DNA from: a virus
DNA: 25,891 bases
Strand: one strand, 5' to 3'
IMG/VR virus record: IMGVR_UViG_3300047557_000144
Span: 1 to 25,891 of that record
Part shown: positions 13,384-22,846 of the stretch, in pieces
Layout of the letters: the number at the start of each line of letters is the position of its first letter
How positions within the stretch are numbered: position 1 is the first letter of the stretch
The notes under the pieces: generated by a model
Seen by the model: the letters and a program-made list of their open reading frames with translations, nothing else
Told to the model about the DNA's origin: nothing
Database searches by the model: none
Translations under genes and position numbers: made by a program

Positions 13384-14028
13384 ATGATTGATAGCGATAC
13401 CCAAGACGCAGATTCTCGTTTGGCAGTTAAGTTTTATAAGCGAGCCGTCAAACTAGAACATGAATCTAACGAAGCTGGCAGACCCATATTCAAGGACTTT
13501 GATTTTGTCCGAATTATGATTGCAGGCGATAATTTGACCGAAATTGACACCTACGCACAGGAACACCATAAACAACGGTTTCCAAAGCAATGGCTTCAAT
13601 ATCAAGCTACACAAGAATCTAATAGCGAGATTATTGGTACGCCCGTAGAACAATGGCCTTTAATTAGCCAATCTCAAGCCCAAGAATTACGGGGTGTAAA
13701 GTTTATGACCGTAGAATCGATTGCTAACGCTTCTGACCTACAGTTACAACGAATTGGCATGATTGCGGGTATGTCACCCCATTCGTTTAGGGATAAAGCT
13801 AGAACATTCCTTAATTTAGCCGAAGAAACCGCAGAAGCCACCAAGCGAGCAGAAGAAATTAACGCTTTGAAGCAAGAACTTGCCAAAAAAGACGAGGAAA
13901 ATGCTCGTATAAAAGCAGAAACAGACCAAAAATTGGCTGTTATGCAAGAGCAGATGGCAGCTTTATTGGAAGCGGTTACTGAAAAGAAAACTAGAACTCG
14001 CAAGCCAAAAGCTGAACAAACGGCTTAA
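13384..14028 (+). CDS. Head-tail region protein with helix-hairpin-helix-like segment and coiled coil
   Basis: A 214-residue protein. Residues 84-145 hold a pattern common in podoviral proteins next to capsid genes: GTPVEQWPLISQSQAQELRG, then FMTVESIANASDLQLQRIG and RDKARTFLNLAEE. This resembles a helix-hairpin-helix segment, although DNA binding is not established. From about 148 to 200 it is a coiled coil of charged helix (EEINALKQELAKKDEENARI), ending in a basic tail KKTRTRKPKAEQTA. It begins after the terminator with its own TAAGGAG site. Its stop overlaps the stop of the opposing endonuclease gene (shared TTAA). The role in the virion or in assembly is unassigned. Confidence 0.6.
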   Translation: MIDSDTQDADSRLAVKFYKRAVKLEHESNEAGRPIFKDFDFVRIMIAGDNLTEIDTYAQEHHKQRFPKQWLQYQATQESNSEIIGTPVEQWPLISQSQAQELRGVKFMTVESIANASDLQLQRIGMIAGMSPHSFRDKARTFLNLAEETAEATKRAEEINALKQELAKKDEENARIKAETDQKLAVMQEQMAALLEAVTEKKTRTRKPKAEQTA

Positions 14029-14513
14029 TTGTGCCTAGCAAACTTGCCGTGATATTTGTTACGGGCTTCTGTGGCAACTAACTCGGCAAGTTCTAAATCA
14101 CAAAAATAACCAAAATGTAAAACTTTTTTGTCATATCTTATTTGGACTTGCCATTTGCCTGTTCTTTTGTAAAGACTTACATTTTTTATTTTGTTTTTTG
14201 GCTTTGTGTTGTAATTATTTTCAGAAGCAGTTGCTGCCCTCAAGTTTTCAATTCTATTGTCGTATTTGTTGCCATTTATATGGTCAATTATTTTAGGCAT
14301 AAAGCCGTGAAACATCATATAAATAAGCCTGTGGGCTAAGTGTTTTTGGCGGTTAATTGTTATACGAACATAAGGTCTTGAATAATCTACATGACCTGCA
14401 ATACCACCTTTATTTACGCATTTTTTTGATATTTTCCAATAAAGCACCCCGTCTTTATAATTAAAAAAATTATGTAAATCTGTTTGTGTTAGGGTAAAAT
14501 TGGATTCAGACAT
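14025..14513 (-). CDS. HNH homing endonuclease with AP2 DNA-binding domain
   Basis: The only confident minus-strand gene: 162 residues. HNH nuclease core at about 58-100: HLAHRLIYMMFHG, then IIDHINGNKYDNRIENLRAA with D77-H78, N86 and N90, and N99 in TASENNYN. These are the metal-binding and catalytic positions of the HNH_3 type. Residues 109-160 (KNVSLYKRTGKWQVQIRY, FGYFCDLELAELVATEARN) are an AP2/ERF-like domain, a standard DNA-binding partner of homing HNH enzymes. AGGAG lies 7 bases before its ATG. It is free-standing between structural genes and convergent with the gene to its left. It should cut a cognate phage lacking the insertion and spread by repair. Confidence 0.9.
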   Translation of the reverse strand: MSESNFTLTQTDLHNFFNYKDGVLYWKISKKCVNKGGIAGHVDYSRPYVRITINRQKHLAHRLIYMMFHGFMPKIIDHINGNKYDNRIENLRAATASENNYNTKPKNKIKNVSLYKRTGKWQVQIRYDKKVLHFGYFCDLELAELVATEARNKYHGKFARHN

Positions 14514-15546: not shown

Positions 15547-17313
15547 ATGGCAGTACCACAGCAACGAAGGGCAGTTACCGCTTCCGTGCCATCCCCTATT
15601 GGCGGTTGGAACGCACGGGATTCTGTTGCAGAAATGAACCCGTTAGATGCGGTAGTTCTAAATAACTTTTACCCAACCCCATCGGAAATACAGTTAAGAA
15701 AAGGCTATACCAAATACGCCACAGGCATTACGGGGCAAGTTGATACCTTAATGCAATATTCAGGTGGTTCTACAAGCAAGCTATTTGCGGCTGCTGGTAG
15801 CGTGATTTATGATGTTTCTAGCGGTGGAACTGCTAGTTCTGCGGTTACTGCACTTGGAAGTGACCGTTGGCAATATGTCAATGTATCAACCGCAGGTGGA
15901 AACTTTTTAACAGCCGTTAATGGCACAGATGCACCCTTAATTTATGATGGCACAAATTGGATTAAATACGCCACCACATCAACTGCCCAAACTATTAGCA
16001 ATTTAACCAGTTCAGGAACGACTTGTACCCTAGTTACTAGCGTTGCTCATGGCTTAGTTTCAGGCAATCAGGTCACAATTACAGGTGCAAGCCCCGCAGA
16101 ATATAACGGAACATTTGTAATTACAGTAGTAAATGGCACAACTTTTACTTATACAGCACTTTCAGCCCCCGCAAGTAGCCCCGCAAGCCCATTAGGCTCA
16201 TATACAGTTGCTAAATACTTAACTGGGGTTACTAATAGTCAATTAATCCATGTTAATTTGCATAAAGAACGCTTATATTTTGTGCAAAATGGCACTTTAA
16301 AGTTTTGGTATTTGCCCGTTAATCAAATTAGCGGTAATTTGACCTCATTTGACTTAGGTGGAATTGCTCGAAATGGCGGTTACATTCAAGCAATGGGCAC
16401 TTGGACTTTAGATGCTGGCTACGGAGCAGATGATTACGCTGTATTTATTACTAATAACGGTGAAGCGATTGTTTATAAAGGCTCTGACCCTTCAAGTTCT
16501 ACAGATTGGGCATTAATTGGGGTATGGCAATTAGGTCAGGTCTTTACTAGACGCTGTTTTTTTAAGTGGGCTGGAGATTTATTGTTACTAACGCATGACG
16601 GAATCGTGCCGTTGACGGGTGCTTTGCAATCATCCCGACTTGACCCCCGAATTAACATTACCGACAAGATTTATTACGCTGTAAGCCAAGCGGCAGACCT
16701 TTATAGCACCGAATTTGGCTGGCAAATTACCTATTACGCCAAAGAAAATATGTTAATTTTTAATATTCCTGTAATTGGCGGTCAGCAACAGTTTGTAATG
16801 CACACCATCACTAAAGCATGGGCTAGTTTCTCAGGATTAAACGCCACTTGCTTTGAAAGCTACAACGAAAATATGTATTTTGGTGGTAATGGCTATGTTG
16901 GTAAGTTTTGGGATGGTTTATCCGATGATGACCAAAACATTAAGGCTTCATGCCAACAAGCGTATAGCTATTTTGACGCTAGAGGGCAGTTAAAACGCTT
17001 TACGATGGTTCGCCCTATCCTGTTTACTGATAACGGCACACCCGCCATTTTATGCGGCATTAACACCGATTTTGAAACCCAAAATAACATTGGTCAAGTA
17101 AGCTTTAACCCCGCTTTAGTATCAGTTGGGGTTTGGGACACATCTACTTGGGATGACTTTGATTGGGGCGGTGGCAATACCATATCAAAACAATGGCAAG
17201 GCGTGACAGGCATAGGTTATGCTGCAGGAATTATCCTAAATATTGCATCGCAAGATATTGATGTGCGGTGGGCAAGTACAGATTATGTAATGGAGCGTGG
17301 TGCGGTGCTGTGA
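15547..17313 (+). CDS. Tail nozzle / tail tubular B-like protein
   Basis: A 588-residue protein, nearly all beta. It begins SVPSPIGGWNARDSVAEMNP, followed by AVVLNNFYPTPSEIQLRKGY, the recurring start of podoviral nozzle proteins encoded after the adaptor. Propeller-like repeats continue (GNFLTAVNGTDAPLIYDGTN, DLLLLTHDGIVPLTG, MHTITKAWASFSGLNATCFE). Residues about 149-224 are an inserted domain shared with the fibre-like protein at 22001. The C-terminal part (WDTSTWDDFDWGG, KQWQGVTGIGYAAGI) is also typical. It should form the central tail tube or tip. It starts two bases after the adaptor stop with a weak ribosome site, and its stop overlaps the acetyltransferase start. Confidence 0.8.
   Translation: MAVPQQRRAVTASVPSPIGGWNARDSVAEMNPLDAVVLNNFYPTPSEIQLRKGYTKYATGITGQVDTLMQYSGGSTSKLFAAAGSVIYDVSSGGTASSAVTALGSDRWQYVNVSTAGGNFLTAVNGTDAPLIYDGTNWIKYATTSTAQTISNLTSSGTTCTLVTSVAHGLVSGNQVTITGASPAEYNGTFVITVVNGTTFTYTALSAPASSPASPLGSYTVAKYLTGVTNSQLIHVNLHKERLYFVQNGTLKFWYLPVNQISGNLTSFDLGGIARNGGYIQAMGTWTLDAGYGADDYAVFITNNGEAIVYKGSDPSSSTDWALIGVWQLGQVFTRRCFFKWAGDLLLLTHDGIVPLTGALQSSRLDPRINITDKIYYAVSQAADLYSTEFGWQITYYAKENMLIFNIPVIGGQQQFVMHTITKAWASFSGLNATCFESYNENMYFGGNGYVGKFWDGLSDDDQNIKASCQQAYSYFDARGQLKRFTMVRPILFTDNGTPAILCGINTDFETQNNIGQVSFNPALVSVGVWDTSTWDDFDWGGGNTISKQWQGVTGIGYAAGIILNIASQDIDVRWASTDYVMERGAVL
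15991..16218 (+). repeat. Inserted beta domain copy 1 (E1-FCCH-like)
   Basis: 76 codons from TISNLTSSGTT to YTVAKY inside the nozzle-like gene. They align without break, except one codon, to 22439-22663 in an unrelated fibre-like gene, sharing AHxLV, VTITGA-type and the YNGT-x-x-ITVV-x-GT-x-FTYT core. Over the 72-base core the two copies agree at 57 bases by hand count. Confidence 0.75.
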
Positions 17314-17741
17314 GAAGGGTTACAACGGAAAACCAAGAATATTTACGGGGGTGGCTATCCAAAGTTTTGGGGATGCAATTCTCTAATTATTCACGCTTTA
17401 TTGGTCAAGAAATTAACGGTCAAATCCAAGCAGTTGTAGGTTTTGACAACATTATGGATAAGTCGTGTTGTATGCATGTTGGGGCTTTAGTCCCTAATTG
17501 GATTAGTAAAGATTTGTTGTGGGCAAGCTTTGATTACCCCTTTAACATATTGAAACTAAAGGTTATACTAGCGTTAGTTTCTTCCAACAATACGGAAGCA
17601 CTAAAACTAGACCGACACCTTGGTTTTGTTGATAAAGCGTATATCGAAGATGCCCATTTAGATGGGGATTTAGTTATATTAGCGATGAGGCGTGAAAATT
17701 GTCGTTGGCTCGACATTAAAGCACCCTTAAAAGGAGATTAA
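17310..17741 (+). CDS. GNAT-family acetyltransferase
   Basis: Start chosen at GTG 17310, overlapping the previous TGA (GTGA). This gives 143 residues beginning MRRVTTENQEYLRGWLSKVL, which agrees with the usual start of phage GNAT proteins next to tail genes. An upstream in-frame GTG would add 14 residues encoded inside the nozzle gene. Features: IGQEINGQIQAVVGFDNIMD (central strands), WASFDYPFNILKLKVILALV, then SSNNTEALKLDRHLGFVDKA, where the Asn-rich loop and the LGF motif are the usual acetyl-CoA fold end, and GDLVILAMRRENCRWL. It transfers acetyl groups from acetyl-CoA; the target is unknown. Such genes recur between nozzle and ejection genes, implying a virion- or host-related job. Confidence 0.8.
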   Translation: MRRVTTENQEYLRGWLSKVLGMQFSNYSRFIGQEINGQIQAVVGFDNIMDKSCCMHVGALVPNWISKDLLWASFDYPFNILKLKVILALVSSNNTEALKLDRHLGFVDKAYIEDAHLDGDLVILAMRRENCRWLDIKAPLKGD

Positions 17742-17742
17742 C

Positions 17743-18894
17743 ATGGGCGGTGGTGGCGGAATTGGTGGTTTAGTAGGCGGTGGATTAGGCTTTTTGGCTG
17801 GCGGCCCAGTCGGGGCGGCTATTGGTGCTGGTATTGGCATGGGTGCTGGTTCAGCATTAGGCGGTGGAAATCAAGCACCTGCCGCACCCGATTACACAGG
17901 TGCAGCACAAGCTACCGCTCAAGGAAATTTAGATGCCGCTAGAGCAGCCGCAGCCGCTAACCGTGTAAATCAAATAACTCCATACGGTAATCTTACATAT
18001 CGTGTAAGCGGTTCAGACCCATTCGGCAATCCAACTTGGACTGCTACTCAAACTTTAGCCCCCGCTCAACAACGCTTATTGGATATTCAAAACGAATTAA
18101 GTATTGGTCAAGGCGAACTTGGCAAAACTGGTCTTAAATATGTTGGCGAACAATTAGCTAACCCATTTGATGTTAGCAAACTACCAAGCATAGGTATTAA
18201 CCCTAGTGAAACTTATTCTGACGCAATTATGCGTAGGCTTGCTCCTACTTTGCAACAACAAAACGAGCAATTAGAGCAACAATTAGCAAATCAAGGTATT
18301 CCAGTTGGTTCTGAAGCTTACAACCGTGCAAAAATGTCTTTATCTCAGCGTCAAAACGATTTAATGTTAGGTGCTCAAACTCAAGGTTTACAAGCTGGTT
18401 TATCTGCAAGACAACAACAATTAGGCGAATTAGCTTATCGCAGAAACGAGCCTTTAAACATTTTGAACGCATTACGAAGCGGGGCACAAGTTACAGGCCC
18501 AAGCTATGTAAATACACCACAACAAGCTACAACGGCTGGTGCTGATTTGTTAGCCGCAAATCAAATGGGCTATAACGCTCAAATGGGTGCATACAACGCT
18601 CAACAAGCTCAACAAGCTAACTTAATGGGTGGTTTGTTTGGATTGGGTGCGGCTGGCTTAATGGGCGGTTATTCTGACCCACGCACTAAAGAAAACATTA
18701 AAGCGATTGGCGTAATGGAAAACGGATTAACTCTTTACAGCTTTGAATACAAAGATGAATTTAAAGACCGTAGTTATGGTGGTCATGGCGTTCATGTTGG
18801 CGTTATGGCTGACGAAGTTGAACAAGTTTACCCATACGCAGTACGAACACTTGATGACGGCTACAAAGTCGTAGATTACGGACTAATACCATGA
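17743..18894 (+). CDS. Ejection-type protein with C-terminal S74 auto-processing domain
   Basis: A 383-residue protein. Residues 1-42 are almost all Gly, Ala, Leu and Ile (GLVGGGLGFLAGGPVGAAIG), a likely membrane-active segment. The middle is Gln/Ala/Asn-rich helix (LAPTLQQQNEQLEQQLANQG), typical of podoviral internal or ejection proteins, followed by a second glycine-rich hydrophobic stretch at about 297-310. From S311 comes SDPRTKENIKAIG, then LYSFEYKDEF, HVGVMADEVEQVYPYAV and KVVDYG, the peptidase S74 chaperone domain of fibres. The Ser-Lys spacing (S311, K316) matches the self-cleaving dyad. It probably cleaves off its last 73 residues after assembly. AAGGAG at 17731-17736 fixes the start; its stop overlaps the next gene by 4 bases. 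Confidence 0.7.
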   Translation: MGGGGGIGGLVGGGLGFLAGGPVGAAIGAGIGMGAGSALGGGNQAPAAPDYTGAAQATAQGNLDAARAAAAANRVNQITPYGNLTYRVSGSDPFGNPTWTATQTLAPAQQRLLDIQNELSIGQGELGKTGLKYVGEQLANPFDVSKLPSIGINPSETYSDAIMRRLAPTLQQQNEQLEQQLANQGIPVGSEAYNRAKMSLSQRQNDLMLGAQTQGLQAGLSARQQQLGELAYRRNEPLNILNALRSGAQVTGPSYVNTPQQATTAGADLLAANQMGYNAQMGAYNAQQAQQANLMGGLFGLGAAGLMGGYSDPRTKENIKAIGVMENGLTLYSFEYKDEFKDRSYGGHGVHVGVMADEVEQVYPYAVRTLDDGYKVVDYGLIP

Positions 18895-19211
18895 ATCCAT
18901 ACATTATGCCTATGCAACAAGCCCAAGATGTAAGCGGGCTATTGCCTATTTATCAAGCGATTGGTCAACAACAAGCCATGCAAAACGCTGCGTTGGCACA
19001 ACAAAACCAATTAATGAATCAAGCGGGACAAACCACAGGTGGCTTTAATCCTTCTGCTATGGCTCAAATGTTGCGTGGTGGCAATATGAGTGGTGTTTTG
19101 TCATCCATTCCCGCAAATTTGCGTTATGGCTCAAGCAATGTGTACGGTGGATTGGGTCAAGGCAAAGTGCCGACCGCAATTTTAGCTGACACTTGGGGCA
19201 TGGGAGAGTAA
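18891..19211 (+). CDS. Gln/Met-rich small protein, probable virion component
   Basis: A 106-residue protein overlapping the previous stop (ATGA). It is rich in Gln, Met, Asn and Gly: YQAIGQQQAMQNAALAQQNQ followed by MNQAGQTTGGFNPSAMAQML. The composition is like the neighbouring ejection-type proteins, and it sits inside that gene run, so a minor internal virion role is inferred. No family was recognised. It has no catalytic motif, membrane segment or cysteine. Confidence 0.5.
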   Translation: MNPYIMPMQQAQDVSGLLPIYQAIGQQQAMQNAALAQQNQLMNQAGQTTGGFNPSAMAQMLRGGNMSGVLSSIPANLRYGSSNVYGGLGQGKVPTAILADTWGMGE

Positions 19212-19213
19212 TT

Positions 19214-20353
19214 ATGGCTAATGGATTTTTGCCAACTAACGCGGGAATCGGAGCAATCCCACCTGATTTGCTAATGCAACAACAACAATTAAACCGTCAA
19301 CAAAAGATGGCTGAATTGTTAATGGCTCAAGGTATGCAACAACCACAAGGTCAAATGGTTAGTGGGCGTTATGTTGCACCTAGCGTGTTTCAGTATTTAA
19401 CACCAGTATTTCAAGCATATGCAGGTCAAAAACTTGCTAAAGAAGGCGATAAAGCCATGCTTGACCTTGCTGAACAATTACGCAAAGGCAAAGAACAAGA
19501 AACACGGGCAATTATGGAACAACTTACACCCCGTGATGTTCAAACTGAAATGGCTGGGCCATATACAGGCAATGTGCCTATGCCCACTATGACGCAAACT
19601 GTACAACCTAACATTCAAAATGCAATGAATTTGGCGTTGCAATCTCGTTATGGTGCTGGCAAAGAACTATTGCCGACATTAATTCAACGCTCATTGCCTG
19701 AGCCTGTTAAACCTACGACTGATATGCAAAACTATGAGTATGCAAAAACTCAAGGATTTAAAGGTTCGTTTAACGATTTTAAAAATCAAATTACCCCAGC
19801 CGAGCGTGAGCGTTTAGCTTTAGACCGTGAAAAGTTTGAGTTTGAAAAACAAACTAAAGGTAGCGGTAAAGATTTAACCGAAGCACAAGGAAAAGCATCT
19901 GCTTTCCAAAGTCAAATGGTAAGTGCTAACAATGTGGTTCGCAATCTTGAAGCCCAAGGTTTTAATCCAACTTCTTTTGCAAGCCAAACAGCAGTTCGTT
20001 TAGCTGGTGGTGTTGCAAATCCAGTTATTCCTGTTGCAGCACAACAATATAAACAAGCACAAGACCAATGGTCAGAAGCTTATTTACGATTCAAAACTGG
20101 TGCTGCCGCTACTGAGCAAGAAGTTCAAAGAAATAACCGCACATTTTTCCCTGTTTTGGGTGACAAGCCTGACCAAATTGCTCAAAAAGCTGCGGCTAGA
20201 GAACAAGCCGAAAAAGATATTGGTATTGCCGCAGGTCGTGGTGCTGGTTTAGGAGCACAACCAACAGCAGGCAAACCAAAAGAAGAAAAACCAGCAGGTA
20301 TGCCAAGCCAATCTGCTATTGATGCAGAACTAAGACGCAGAGGACTAAAGTAA
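19214..20353 (+). CDS. Internal virion / ejection-type protein, Gln-rich
   Basis: Start chosen at ATG 19214 with GGGAGAG just upstream; an earlier in-frame start would lie inside the preceding gene. The product is 379 residues, largely helical and Gln/Lys-rich: DLLMQQQQLNRQQKMAELLM, FQAYAGQKLAKEGDKAMLDL and the charged segment ERERLALDREKFEFEKQ at about 202-218. A part near AYLRFKTGAAATEQEVQRNN, followed by TFFPVLGDKPDQIAQKAAAR, is seen in phage proteins injected with DNA. The C-terminus IDAELRRRGLK is also a recurrent ending in such proteins. It may line the translocation channel, as P22 gp7/gp20 do. Function is inferred from composition and order. Confidence 0.6.
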   Translation: MANGFLPTNAGIGAIPPDLLMQQQQLNRQQKMAELLMAQGMQQPQGQMVSGRYVAPSVFQYLTPVFQAYAGQKLAKEGDKAMLDLAEQLRKGKEQETRAIMEQLTPRDVQTEMAGPYTGNVPMPTMTQTVQPNIQNAMNLALQSRYGAGKELLPTLIQRSLPEPVKPTTDMQNYEYAKTQGFKGSFNDFKNQITPAERERLALDREKFEFEKQTKGSGKDLTEAQGKASAFQSQMVSANNVVRNLEAQGFNPTSFASQTAVRLAGGVANPVIPVAAQQYKQAQDQWSEAYLRFKTGAAATEQEVQRNNRTFFPVLGDKPDQIAQKAAAREQAEKDIGIAAGRGAGLGAQPTAGKPKEEKPAGMPSQSAIDAELRRRGLK

Positions 20354-22008
20354 TGGATTTATCCAAACTTTCAGATGCCGATTTGTTAGCCTTAAAAGGC
20401 GGTGATTTAACTAAACTTTCTAACGAAGGTTTAATGTCACTTAAAGCTACTCCAACTCAACCAACTCAATCTGAGTTTGCTGAAACGGGTGGCGGTGCGG
20501 CTGTTGGCAGACCTGTTCGTGGTGTGCGTTTAAATGTTCAGCCTACCCCTAGACCACTTGAATCATTTATGGCAGGTGCTACTCGTTCTGTGGTTGACCC
20601 TGCATTAGCCGTAGCCCAAGCGGTTACAGGTGGGCGTGGTGGTGTAAGCGAAGCAGTTAAGCGTTTAGCCCAAGAATCACAAGCTTATGAAGAAGCTAAT
20701 CCAGCATCGTATATTGGTGGTCGTGTTGGCGGTGCTGTATTGCCTGCCGCAGGCGTAGCAAAAGGCGTAGGCATGATTCCTAGCTTTGCCCGTGCTAATC
20801 CTTATGTACAAGGTGCTAGCGTAGGTGCAATTAGTGGTGGTTTAACACCGGTAGAAACTGGTGAAACAGGATTGCCAATGTATCAACAGGCCGCAGAAAA
20901 TGTAGCGACTGGAACTGCCATCGGTACAGCGATTCCTGTGGTTGGGCGTGGAATACAAGCCGCAGGTTCAGGTATTCGTAGAGCTTTAGGTCTTACTACG
21001 GGTGCGGGCGAAGAATCCATTGCTCAAGCCGTTAAAGCAGGTCGTGAAGGCAATCAAGCATTTTTACAAAATATTCGTGGTGAAGTGCCTGCAATGGATG
21101 TATTAGACCAAGCTAAAGATGCTTTGGCTAATATGAGAGCGGCTCGTAGTCAAGCTTATCGTCAAGGCATTACAACCACTATGCCCGACCTTGAAATTCG
21201 TGCTGGTAAACCATTACCTAAAGTGCCACCCCGTTTAGACTTTGCACCTATTACAGGAAAGTTAGATGAGGTTGTAGAAAGCCTTAAAGTAAAAACACCT
21301 ACAGGTTCTCAATTTAAGATTGGTTCTGCTGAACTTAACAAAATTGAAGAATTGCAAGATGTTGTCAAAACATGGCAAAAAGACCCCGCATTACATACAG
21401 CAGAAGGTTTAGACGCTCTTAAACAGCGTTTAGATGCTTTATATCCTGATAGTCCCGCACAAAAACAAGTTCAACGAGCAGTAACTTCTGTGCGTAATAC
21501 TGTTAAAGATACGATTGTGGCTCAAGACAAAAACTACGCTAAAACTATGAAAGCGTACGAAGAAGCATTAAGTTTAGAGCGTGAGATTGAAAGAGCTTTG
21601 TCTTTAGGTAACAGAAGTGCCGCAGATACCGCTATTCGTAAACTTCAATCTTTGACCCGTAATAACGCTAATACCAATTATGGCTATCGCATGGAATTAG
21701 CTAAAGCATTACAAGAACAAGGCGGTCAGGATTTAATGCCAGCATTAGCTGGTCAAGCATTAAGTTCATTTACGCCAAGAGGATTAGCGGGGCAAGGTGC
21801 AGCTTTAGGTATTGGTGCGGGCGGTGCTTTAACTGTAAATCCTGCCGCACTAGCCGCCTTACCATTAACTAGCCCACGCTTAGTTGGTATGGGTGCTTAT
21901 GGTTATGGCAGAGCAACAAGAAATATTCCAAAATTAACTGATGCAGAGCTAAGAAACATGGCTCGTATGCTTACTACACAAGGTATTCAAGGAGTAATAA
22001 ATGAGTAG
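20353..22008 (+). CDS. Internal virion / ejection-type protein, 551 aa
   Basis: Starts within the previous stop (TAATG). N-terminus MDLSKLSDADLLALKGGDLT, then KLSNEGLMSLK, is a short duplicated motif common at the start of podoviral injected proteins. Residues about 120-215 contain Gly/Ala-rich hydrophobic stretches (YIGGRVGGAVLPAAGVAKGV, GASVGAISGGLTPVETGETG) that could insert into a membrane. The rest is long amphipathic helix (AYRQGITTTMPDLEIR, KTMKAYEEALSLEREIERAL), with another hydrophobic Gly/Ala segment at about 480-510. No lysozyme or transglycosylase catalytic motif was found. It is a likely partner of the two preceding proteins in DNA delivery through the periplasm. Confidence 0.65.
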   Translation: MDLSKLSDADLLALKGGDLTKLSNEGLMSLKATPTQPTQSEFAETGGGAAVGRPVRGVRLNVQPTPRPLESFMAGATRSVVDPALAVAQAVTGGRGGVSEAVKRLAQESQAYEEANPASYIGGRVGGAVLPAAGVAKGVGMIPSFARANPYVQGASVGAISGGLTPVETGETGLPMYQQAAENVATGTAIGTAIPVVGRGIQAAGSGIRRALGLTTGAGEESIAQAVKAGREGNQAFLQNIRGEVPAMDVLDQAKDALANMRAARSQAYRQGITTTMPDLEIRAGKPLPKVPPRLDFAPITGKLDEVVESLKVKTPTGSQFKIGSAELNKIEELQDVVKTWQKDPALHTAEGLDALKQRLDALYPDSPAQKQVQRAVTSVRNTVKDTIVAQDKNYAKTMKAYEEALSLEREIERALSLGNRSAADTAIRKLQSLTRNNANTNYGYRMELAKALQEQGGQDLMPALAGQALSSFTPRGLAGQGAALGIGAGGALTVNPAALAALPLTSPRLVGMGAYGYGRATRNIPKLTDAELRNMARMLTTQGIQGVINE

Positions 22009-22846
22009 AAACGGGTCAGGTACATATACACTTCCTGCGGGTAATCCCGTAGTTAGCCAAACAGTTATTTCGTCAACATGGGCGAATAACACCATGAACG
22101 ATATTGCTTCCGCACTTACGGGTTCGGTAGCGGCAGACGGTCAAACCCCGATGACTGGCCCTTTAAACATGAATAGCAACAAAATTGCTAATCTTGCTAA
22201 CGGAACAATCAATGGCGATGCAGTTAATTTCACGCAATTTAACACTCCTACTTTTGGCGGTGCAGCAACATTTAATTCCACAATTACAGTAGTTGGAAAC
22301 GGTATTTTTTCAGGCACAGGCTTTGTAAAACTGCCTAATGGCACAACCGCCCAAAGACCCGCAAGTTACACAGTTGGTGCGGTACGCTATAACACCACAT
22401 TACAGCAATTTGAAGGATATTCAACTTATAGCGGACAAACCATTAGTTCAATTACTAATAGTACGACTACCGCTACTTTAACAACTGCAACCGCCCATAA
22501 CTTAGTAAACGGCACATATATCACAGTTAGTGGTGCTACCCCAGCCGCATATAACGGAACTTACGCAATTACGGTGGTAGATGGCACTAGCTTTACTTAT
22601 ACAATGGGTACTGACCCCGCAGGCCCAGCTACAGTTGTAGGTTCGTATTTGGTTGGAAAATGGGCACAAATTGGCGGTGGGGCAACAGGTAATGGCGGTG
22701 ACCAAGTATTTGTGGAAAACAGCCAAACAATTACTGCGTCTTATCAAATTCCTAGCGGAAAGAACGCATCGACTGTTTCACCCATTACAATTAATAGTGG
22801 CGTAACTGTAACTGTTCCTAGCGGTAGTCGCTGGGTTGTTCTATAA
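22001..22846 (+). CDS. Tail fibre protein, 281 aa
   Basis: N-terminal MSRNGSGTYTLPAGNPVVSQ, then TVISSTWANNTMNDIASALT and DGQTPMTGPLNMNSNKIANL, is the standard virion-attachment start of many podoviral tail fibres. Residues about 110-145 (PNGTTAQRPASYTVGAVRYN) are a fibre repeat ending in a strand seen in many phages. Residues 147-221 are the beta domain shared with the nozzle-like protein. The last 34 residues end SGSRWVVL, as in the 555-residue protein near the portal. It is compact for a fibre and probably trimeric. AAGGAG at 21989-21994 fixes the start, which overlaps the previous gene by 8 bases. It likely anchors or precedes the short receptor proteins that follow. Confidence 0.8.
   Translation: MSRNGSGTYTLPAGNPVVSQTVISSTWANNTMNDIASALTGSVAADGQTPMTGPLNMNSNKIANLANGTINGDAVNFTQFNTPTFGGAATFNSTITVVGNGIFSGTGFVKLPNGTTAQRPASYTVGAVRYNTTLQQFEGYSTYSGQTISSITNSTTTATLTTATAHNLVNGTYITVSGATPAAYNGTYAITVVDGTSFTYTMGTDPAGPATVVGSYLVGKWAQIGGGATGNGGDQVFVENSQTITASYQIPSGKNASTVSPITINSGVTVTVPSGSRWVVL
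22439..22663 (+). repeat. Inserted beta domain copy 2 (E1-FCCH-like)
   Basis: 75 codons matching the domain at 15991-16218 in the nozzle-like gene. Both copies run from TIS-x-x-T through a conserved YNGT core to GSY-x-V-x-K. The host proteins are otherwise unrelated, so this is a mobile or internally copied module. Confidence 0.75.
22742..22843 (+). repeat. C-terminal module copy 2 (shared with 8699-8800)
   Basis: The last 34 codons of the 281-residue tail fibre, identical at 22 of 34 residues to the end of the fibre-like protein at 7136-8803. Both finish with SGSRWVVL and a TAA stop. Confidence 0.7.

Follow-up and report, generated by a model that had tools for sequence, protein, structure and literature searches.

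A genuine Peptidase_S74 (ICA) domain with a Ser311/Lys316 dyad is encoded by codons 311–383, the last codons of the gene for a 383-residue podovirus protein. The domain is short, has no coiled coil after it, and is carried by a protein of the DNA-ejection type. With confidence only slightly better than even, we propose that this compact, coil-less S74 domain is a chaperone that is removed autocatalytically from the ejection protein, and that its activity depends on assembly of the carrier around the portal.

The phage, the gene, and its S74 domain

The window, i.e., the whole stretch of 25,891 bases that was analysed, comes from an IMG/VR virus record and is probably a fragment. It shows a podovirus layout with genes for the terminase, portal, major head protein, tube-like proteins, and an acyltransferase, followed by the 383-aa protein. 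Genes for proteins of 106, about 380, and 551 aa lie 3′ of it, and then come fibre-like genes. The features in and around the S74 gene are as follows.

17268..17741, plus strand: acyltransferase-like protein (IVPA / P22 gp14 position), directly 5′ of the S74 gene; phrog_4470, 1.1e-33; equivalent place in phiGT1
17743..18894, plus strand: ejection-type virion protein of 383 aa at the internal virion protein B position, with S74 at its C-terminus; phrog_6121 and phrog_4287; gene order shared with phiGT1 and Mx8
17743..17874, plus strand: N-terminal Gly-rich hydrophobic extension, window phage only; missing from aligned orthologs; pLDDT <50
18616..18672, plus strand: Gly-rich hydrophobic segment before the predicted cut, ANLMGGLFGLGAAGLMGGY; from the alignment; low-confidence linker with pLDDT <50 at residues 292–308
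18673..18891, plus strand: short (73-residue) Peptidase_S74/ICA domain, Ser311–Pro383; PF13884 E 8.5e-9; AlphaFold2 pLDDT 94; profile match to solved S74 domains
18673–18675 (S311) and 18688–18690 (K316), plus strand: dyad codons within the S74 domain
18891..19211, plus strand: 106-aa protein, its start overlapping the S74-gene stop (ATGA); layout kept in 18 of 20 sampled loci of the window's family; 119-aa ORF at the equivalent place in Mx8
19211..20353, plus strand: putative ejection protein of about 380 aa, by position; weak phrog_24864
20353..22008, plus strand: putative large ejection protein of 551 aa (IVPD / P22 gp16 position), by position; weak T3SSipB match, 7e-4, below cut-off

Elsewhere in the window, a 332-aa protein (1671–2669) has a weak match to ART-PolyVal, an ADP-ribosyltransferase domain that occurs in polyvalent proteins of phages (E 3e-5, below cut-off). 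A similar insert is common to a tube-like protein (15547–17313, residues 147–225) and a fibre-like protein (22001–22846, residues 145–225), and phrog_9998 and phrog_5838 match both. An HNH_3 endonuclease ORF (E 1.5e-16) lies on the minus strand at 14025–14513, inside the structural module; HNH genes within the structural module are also present in phiGT1.

The original prediction placed an S74 domain at 18673–18894, which agrees with the reading frame: in ORF 17743–18894, codon 311 (Ser) begins exactly at 18673, and the stop codon is 18892–18894. PF13884 matches residues 311–367 at 36 bits versus a gathering cut-off of 22, covering profile positions 1–57 of 58. The predicted dyad spacing is also correct, as S311-D-P-R-T-K316 is S-x4-K like endoNF S911/K916 and MyRF S587/K592 (PMC8326128). 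A profile built from 73 short S74 domains, with the window sequence first, matches the solved structures of the S16 long tail fibre (6F45, 6e-7), the MyRF ICA (7DC3, 4e-6), and the GA-1 neck appendage (3GUD, 1e-4, over the first 67 of 129 residues only), and likewise 8HQZ. In the full-length AlphaFold2 model, which was run on an alignment of 46 sequences, the mean pLDDT of residues 311–383 is close to 90 or higher. The domain modelled alone is a compact monomeric unit, and Foldseek with this model ranks three MyRF ICA chains at the top, weakly (E 0.03, TM 0.47). Foldseek of the whole protein against the PDB gave no significant match. In phmmer searches of the PDB, the full protein matched nothing and the domain alone reached only E 0.5, and an NCBIfam search of the protein found no family.

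An ejection-type carrier

The carrier had been described as a Gln-rich helical protein with no beta-helix, and the AlphaFold2 model bears this out. The Gln/Ala-rich region upstream of S74 consists of helices at residues 51–73, 107–139, 158–183, 191–245, and 269–293, apart from one small beta hairpin at 77–105. Neither a beta-helix nor an upstream trimeric or interdigitated beta-structure is found in the model. The Gln content upstream of S74 is ~17%, versus 3% in fibres. The Gly-rich N-terminus is disordered (pLDDT <50). The description of the protein as Gly-rich and hydrophobic holds for a conserved stretch directly before Ser311, but not for the N-terminal stretch of 30 residues, which is in no aligned ortholog. 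A PHROG search matches the protein to phrog_6121, a virion structural protein (4e-75), and more weakly to phrog_4287, a DNA ejection protein (8.6e-12).

In viral contigs, 260 relatives were matched, the best 80 of which were retained, and a scan of genome contigs found no relatives. The gene order in the window is tube A, tube B, acyltransferase/IVPA, the S74 gene, and large ejection genes. Cultured or complete relatives that share this order are phiGT1, Rhizobium phages RHph_N2 and RHph_I3_18, pCB2047-C, EBPR podovirus 2, and Mx8. Because of this gene order, the 383-aa protein is assigned as podoviral internal virion protein B, the position of P22 gp7 and T7 gp14, and it is probably injected with the phage DNA. 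The likeness to P22 gp7 and T7 gp14 is one of gene position, beside the acyltransferase or the large ejection genes. The internal virion protein B relatives phiGT1_17, RHph_N2 EVC05_012, Mx8 p54, and PAE2_13 also carry a short C-terminal S74, and the N-domain HMM finds Mx8 p54 at 1.5e-31. What sets the window phage apart from phiGT1_17, RHph_N2, Mx8 p54, and PAE2_13 is an additional Gly-rich N-terminus, together with a 106-aa gene that separates the S74 gene from the large ejection genes. P22-like phages of Vibrio and Pseudomonas have a different helical N-terminus, an equivalent short S74, and adjoining P22-type injection genes; the gene next to their S74 gene has an Inj_translocase match of 3.6e-5, below the Pfam cut-off. 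Relatives of the 383-aa protein are listed in records as virion structural proteins. The claim that this S74 sits on an ejection-type protein and not on a fibre is upheld by a gene order that is alike or equivalent in the phiGT1, Rhizobium, Vibrio, Pseudomonas, and Mx8 relatives, several of which adjoin P22-like injection genes.

The accompanying premise that S74 domains normally occur only on fibres and spikes proved too narrow. Ejection proteins with a short S74 domain are widespread and have been annotated, and MyRF, a eukaryotic membrane-tethered transcription factor, provides a precedent outside fibres. Sulfitobacter, Rhizobium, Brucella, and Pseudomonas phages have the pairing annotated, and Mx8 carries it without annotation. 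It is known at the level of annotation, since the depositors of phiGT1_17 annotated a Pfam S74 domain and PMC4422536 lists ORF 23 of a Brucella phage as a structural protein (peptidase_S74). A search of the open-access literature found no earlier description of an S74 domain cutting on an ejection protein. The new elements are the missing coil, a putative nucleophile that is only Ser or Cys and switches between them, the S74-less orthologs, and the S74 domains within fused ejection polyproteins.

The missing coiled coil and the conserved dyad

The window protein terminates at DYGLIP, without a C-terminal trimeric coiled coil. When the end of the S74 core is defined as V[DN]Y..., all 10 of 10 annotated fibre S74 domains have 19–36 further residues that are coiled-coil-like as judged by eye, and 13 ejection-type or other non-fibre S74 proteins stop 0–16 residues after the core. 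The window domain resembles the S74/CIMCD domains of fibres and spikes (endoNF, T5 pb1, GA-1 gp12, and S16 gp37) in its PF13884 core, its SDxxxK dyad, and its profile match to 6F45, 3GUD, and 8HQZ. In contrast to them, it lacks the coil and the upstream beta-structure, and its carrier is internal and helical. Without a C-terminal coil, it cannot be assumed that the domain works as a fibre S74 does, which normally severs itself from the tail fibre.

The MyRF ICA is the top Foldseek match and is similar in dyad spacing and in having a non-fibre carrier. A profile alignment pairs MyRF S587, R590, K592, Y617, and F621 with S311, R314, K316, Y336, and F340 of the window protein (PMC8326128). Unlike the window protein, MyRF has a trimerisation-driving C-terminal coiled coil and a transmembrane helix. 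It is chiefly this coil that makes MyRF trimerise, and coil-disrupting mutations prevent both trimerisation and cleavage; provided that trimerisation occurs, the MyRF S74 cuts without a beta-helix sensor (PMC8326128). Since the coil drives both steps in MyRF, the short form, if it cuts, needs another means to gather its copies. Supply of the missing coil in trans by the next gene was considered and set aside, as Mx8 p55, at the equivalent place, lacks the relevant motif. The motif in question, DLGGLxPVFQNIxQQQ, forms an N-terminal helix in the 106-aa ORF (18891–19211) that is faintly like the first part of the coiled coils on fibre S74 domains.

Across the sampled loci, the Asp and Lys of SDxxxK are invariant (207 of 207 aligned S74 domains), and at the nucleophile position 190 of them have Ser, 17 have Cys, and none has another residue, in a sample where dyad-less domains are somewhat under-represented because the seed profile held the dyad and some loci were recruited via S74 peptides. 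The residue immediately before the nucleophile varies freely in the same 207 domains. This conservation fits an active site. All the Cys cases fall in the window's family (17 of 81 loci). In the Cys subtype, the Asp is always followed by Pro and a later motif reads MADEV, not MAQEV; Asp stands there where MyRF has Q639. With the S74 columns left out, a tree of the N-terminal part implies 7 Ser/Cys changes, at least 5 of which are forced by well-supported (starred) branches, and a tree of the S74 part alone also implies 7, with 2 forced. If the two parts have recombined with each other, the true number of changes may be smaller.

Two orthologs, in Manatee Spring ctMlz233 (L086) and Bradyrhizobium phage ppBjS10J-1 (L201), have a strong N-terminal profile match and lack S74. 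Both proteins end near the Gly-rich hydrophobic stretch, close to the predicted cut. At eight loci (L087, L148, L151, L152, L166, L167, L169, and L171), S74 is internal to ORFs of roughly 1,200–1,600 residues. These fused ejection-type ORFs contain one S74, in some cases two, with intact dyads, and an SLT transglycosylase, a muralytic domain, lies downstream of the internal S74 in two of the three fused ORFs scanned (L171 and L087). The S74-less orthologs and the internal S74 domains would fit a removable or junction-processing domain, without proving that it cuts.

Possible roles of the domain

In the self-removal mechanism that we propose, S74 would help neighbouring copies of the helical ejection protein to associate during head assembly. 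Having no coiled coil of its own, it would become active only when oligomerisation of the carrier gathers the copies. A cut between residue 310 and Ser311 would then release the 73-residue fragment, and the remaining ejection protein would end in the Gly-rich hydrophobic segment. Cutting would be in keeping with the invariant Asp and Lys, the Ser/Cys-only nucleophile and its changes, the cut-like ends of the S74-less orthologs, the internal S74 domains with intact dyads, and the MyRF precedent. On the other hand, MyRF cleavage needs the coil, and by analogy the coil-less window domain might not cut.

The main rival is that the short S74 does not cut and stays on the protein as a module for folding or interaction, such as a dock on the portal, the scaffold, or another ejection protein, in which the dyad is kept for structural reasons. 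We regard this as rather unlikely. The missing trimerising coil, the lack of predicted upstream beta-structure, and the folding of S74 alone as a compact monomeric unit with pLDDT 94 would suit such a module, whereas a nucleophile that is never Ala, Thr, Gly, or any residue other than Ser or Cys, the invariant Lys, and the dispensability of S74 in two orthologs argue against it. P22 gp7 is present in ~12 copies per virion (PMC4992974), and T7 gp14 goes from 8 copies in the virion to 6 once ejected (PMC11784390); these numbers do not decide between a self-removed and a retained S74. It is less probable still that S74 is a tag for packaging or targeting into the procapsid, later removed by itself or by another protease, with a minor chaperone role. 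The C-terminal position and the existence of S74-less orthologs are consistent with a tag, and the internal S74 of fused proteins could mark processing junctions; however, internal S74 domains are unlike terminal tags.

Several records call the gene a tail fibre or tail spike, labels that stem from the S74 domain itself, and the protein could accordingly be a misread external component whose S74 serves fibre folding. This is very improbable and was rejected. The body is all-helical and Gln/Ala-rich with a Gln content far from that of fibres, the gene lies between the acyltransferase and the ejection genes, and one locus (L065) encodes the short-S74 ejection-type protein and, in another ORF, an S74 that does have a coiled-coil tail.

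The self-removed chaperone can be extended to a more tentative proposal, possible but doubtful, in which coil-less S74 domains form a widespread class of self-cleaving proteases in the DNA-ejection machinery, gated by assembly and able to use Ser or Cys interchangeably as nucleophile, and some members process fused polyproteins at internal sites. The original prediction had gone in another direction, with cleavage next to a membrane-like segment as a timer that arms the delivery protein. Its S74 domain, intact dyad, and ejection-type carrier are real, but the Gly-rich N-terminus on which it was partly based is unique to the window phage; the arming step is speculation and is not needed.

If coil-less S74 domains do cut, podoviruses would have a built-in proteolytic maturation of their ejection proteins, which we did not find described in the T7 and P22 literature, and S74 chemistry would be independent of the coiled coil that is thought to drive cleavage. 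The natural exchange of Ser and Cys would put the S74 mechanism to the test. Moreover, if this is true, tail-fibre calls that rest on S74 alone would need correction across many phage genomes.
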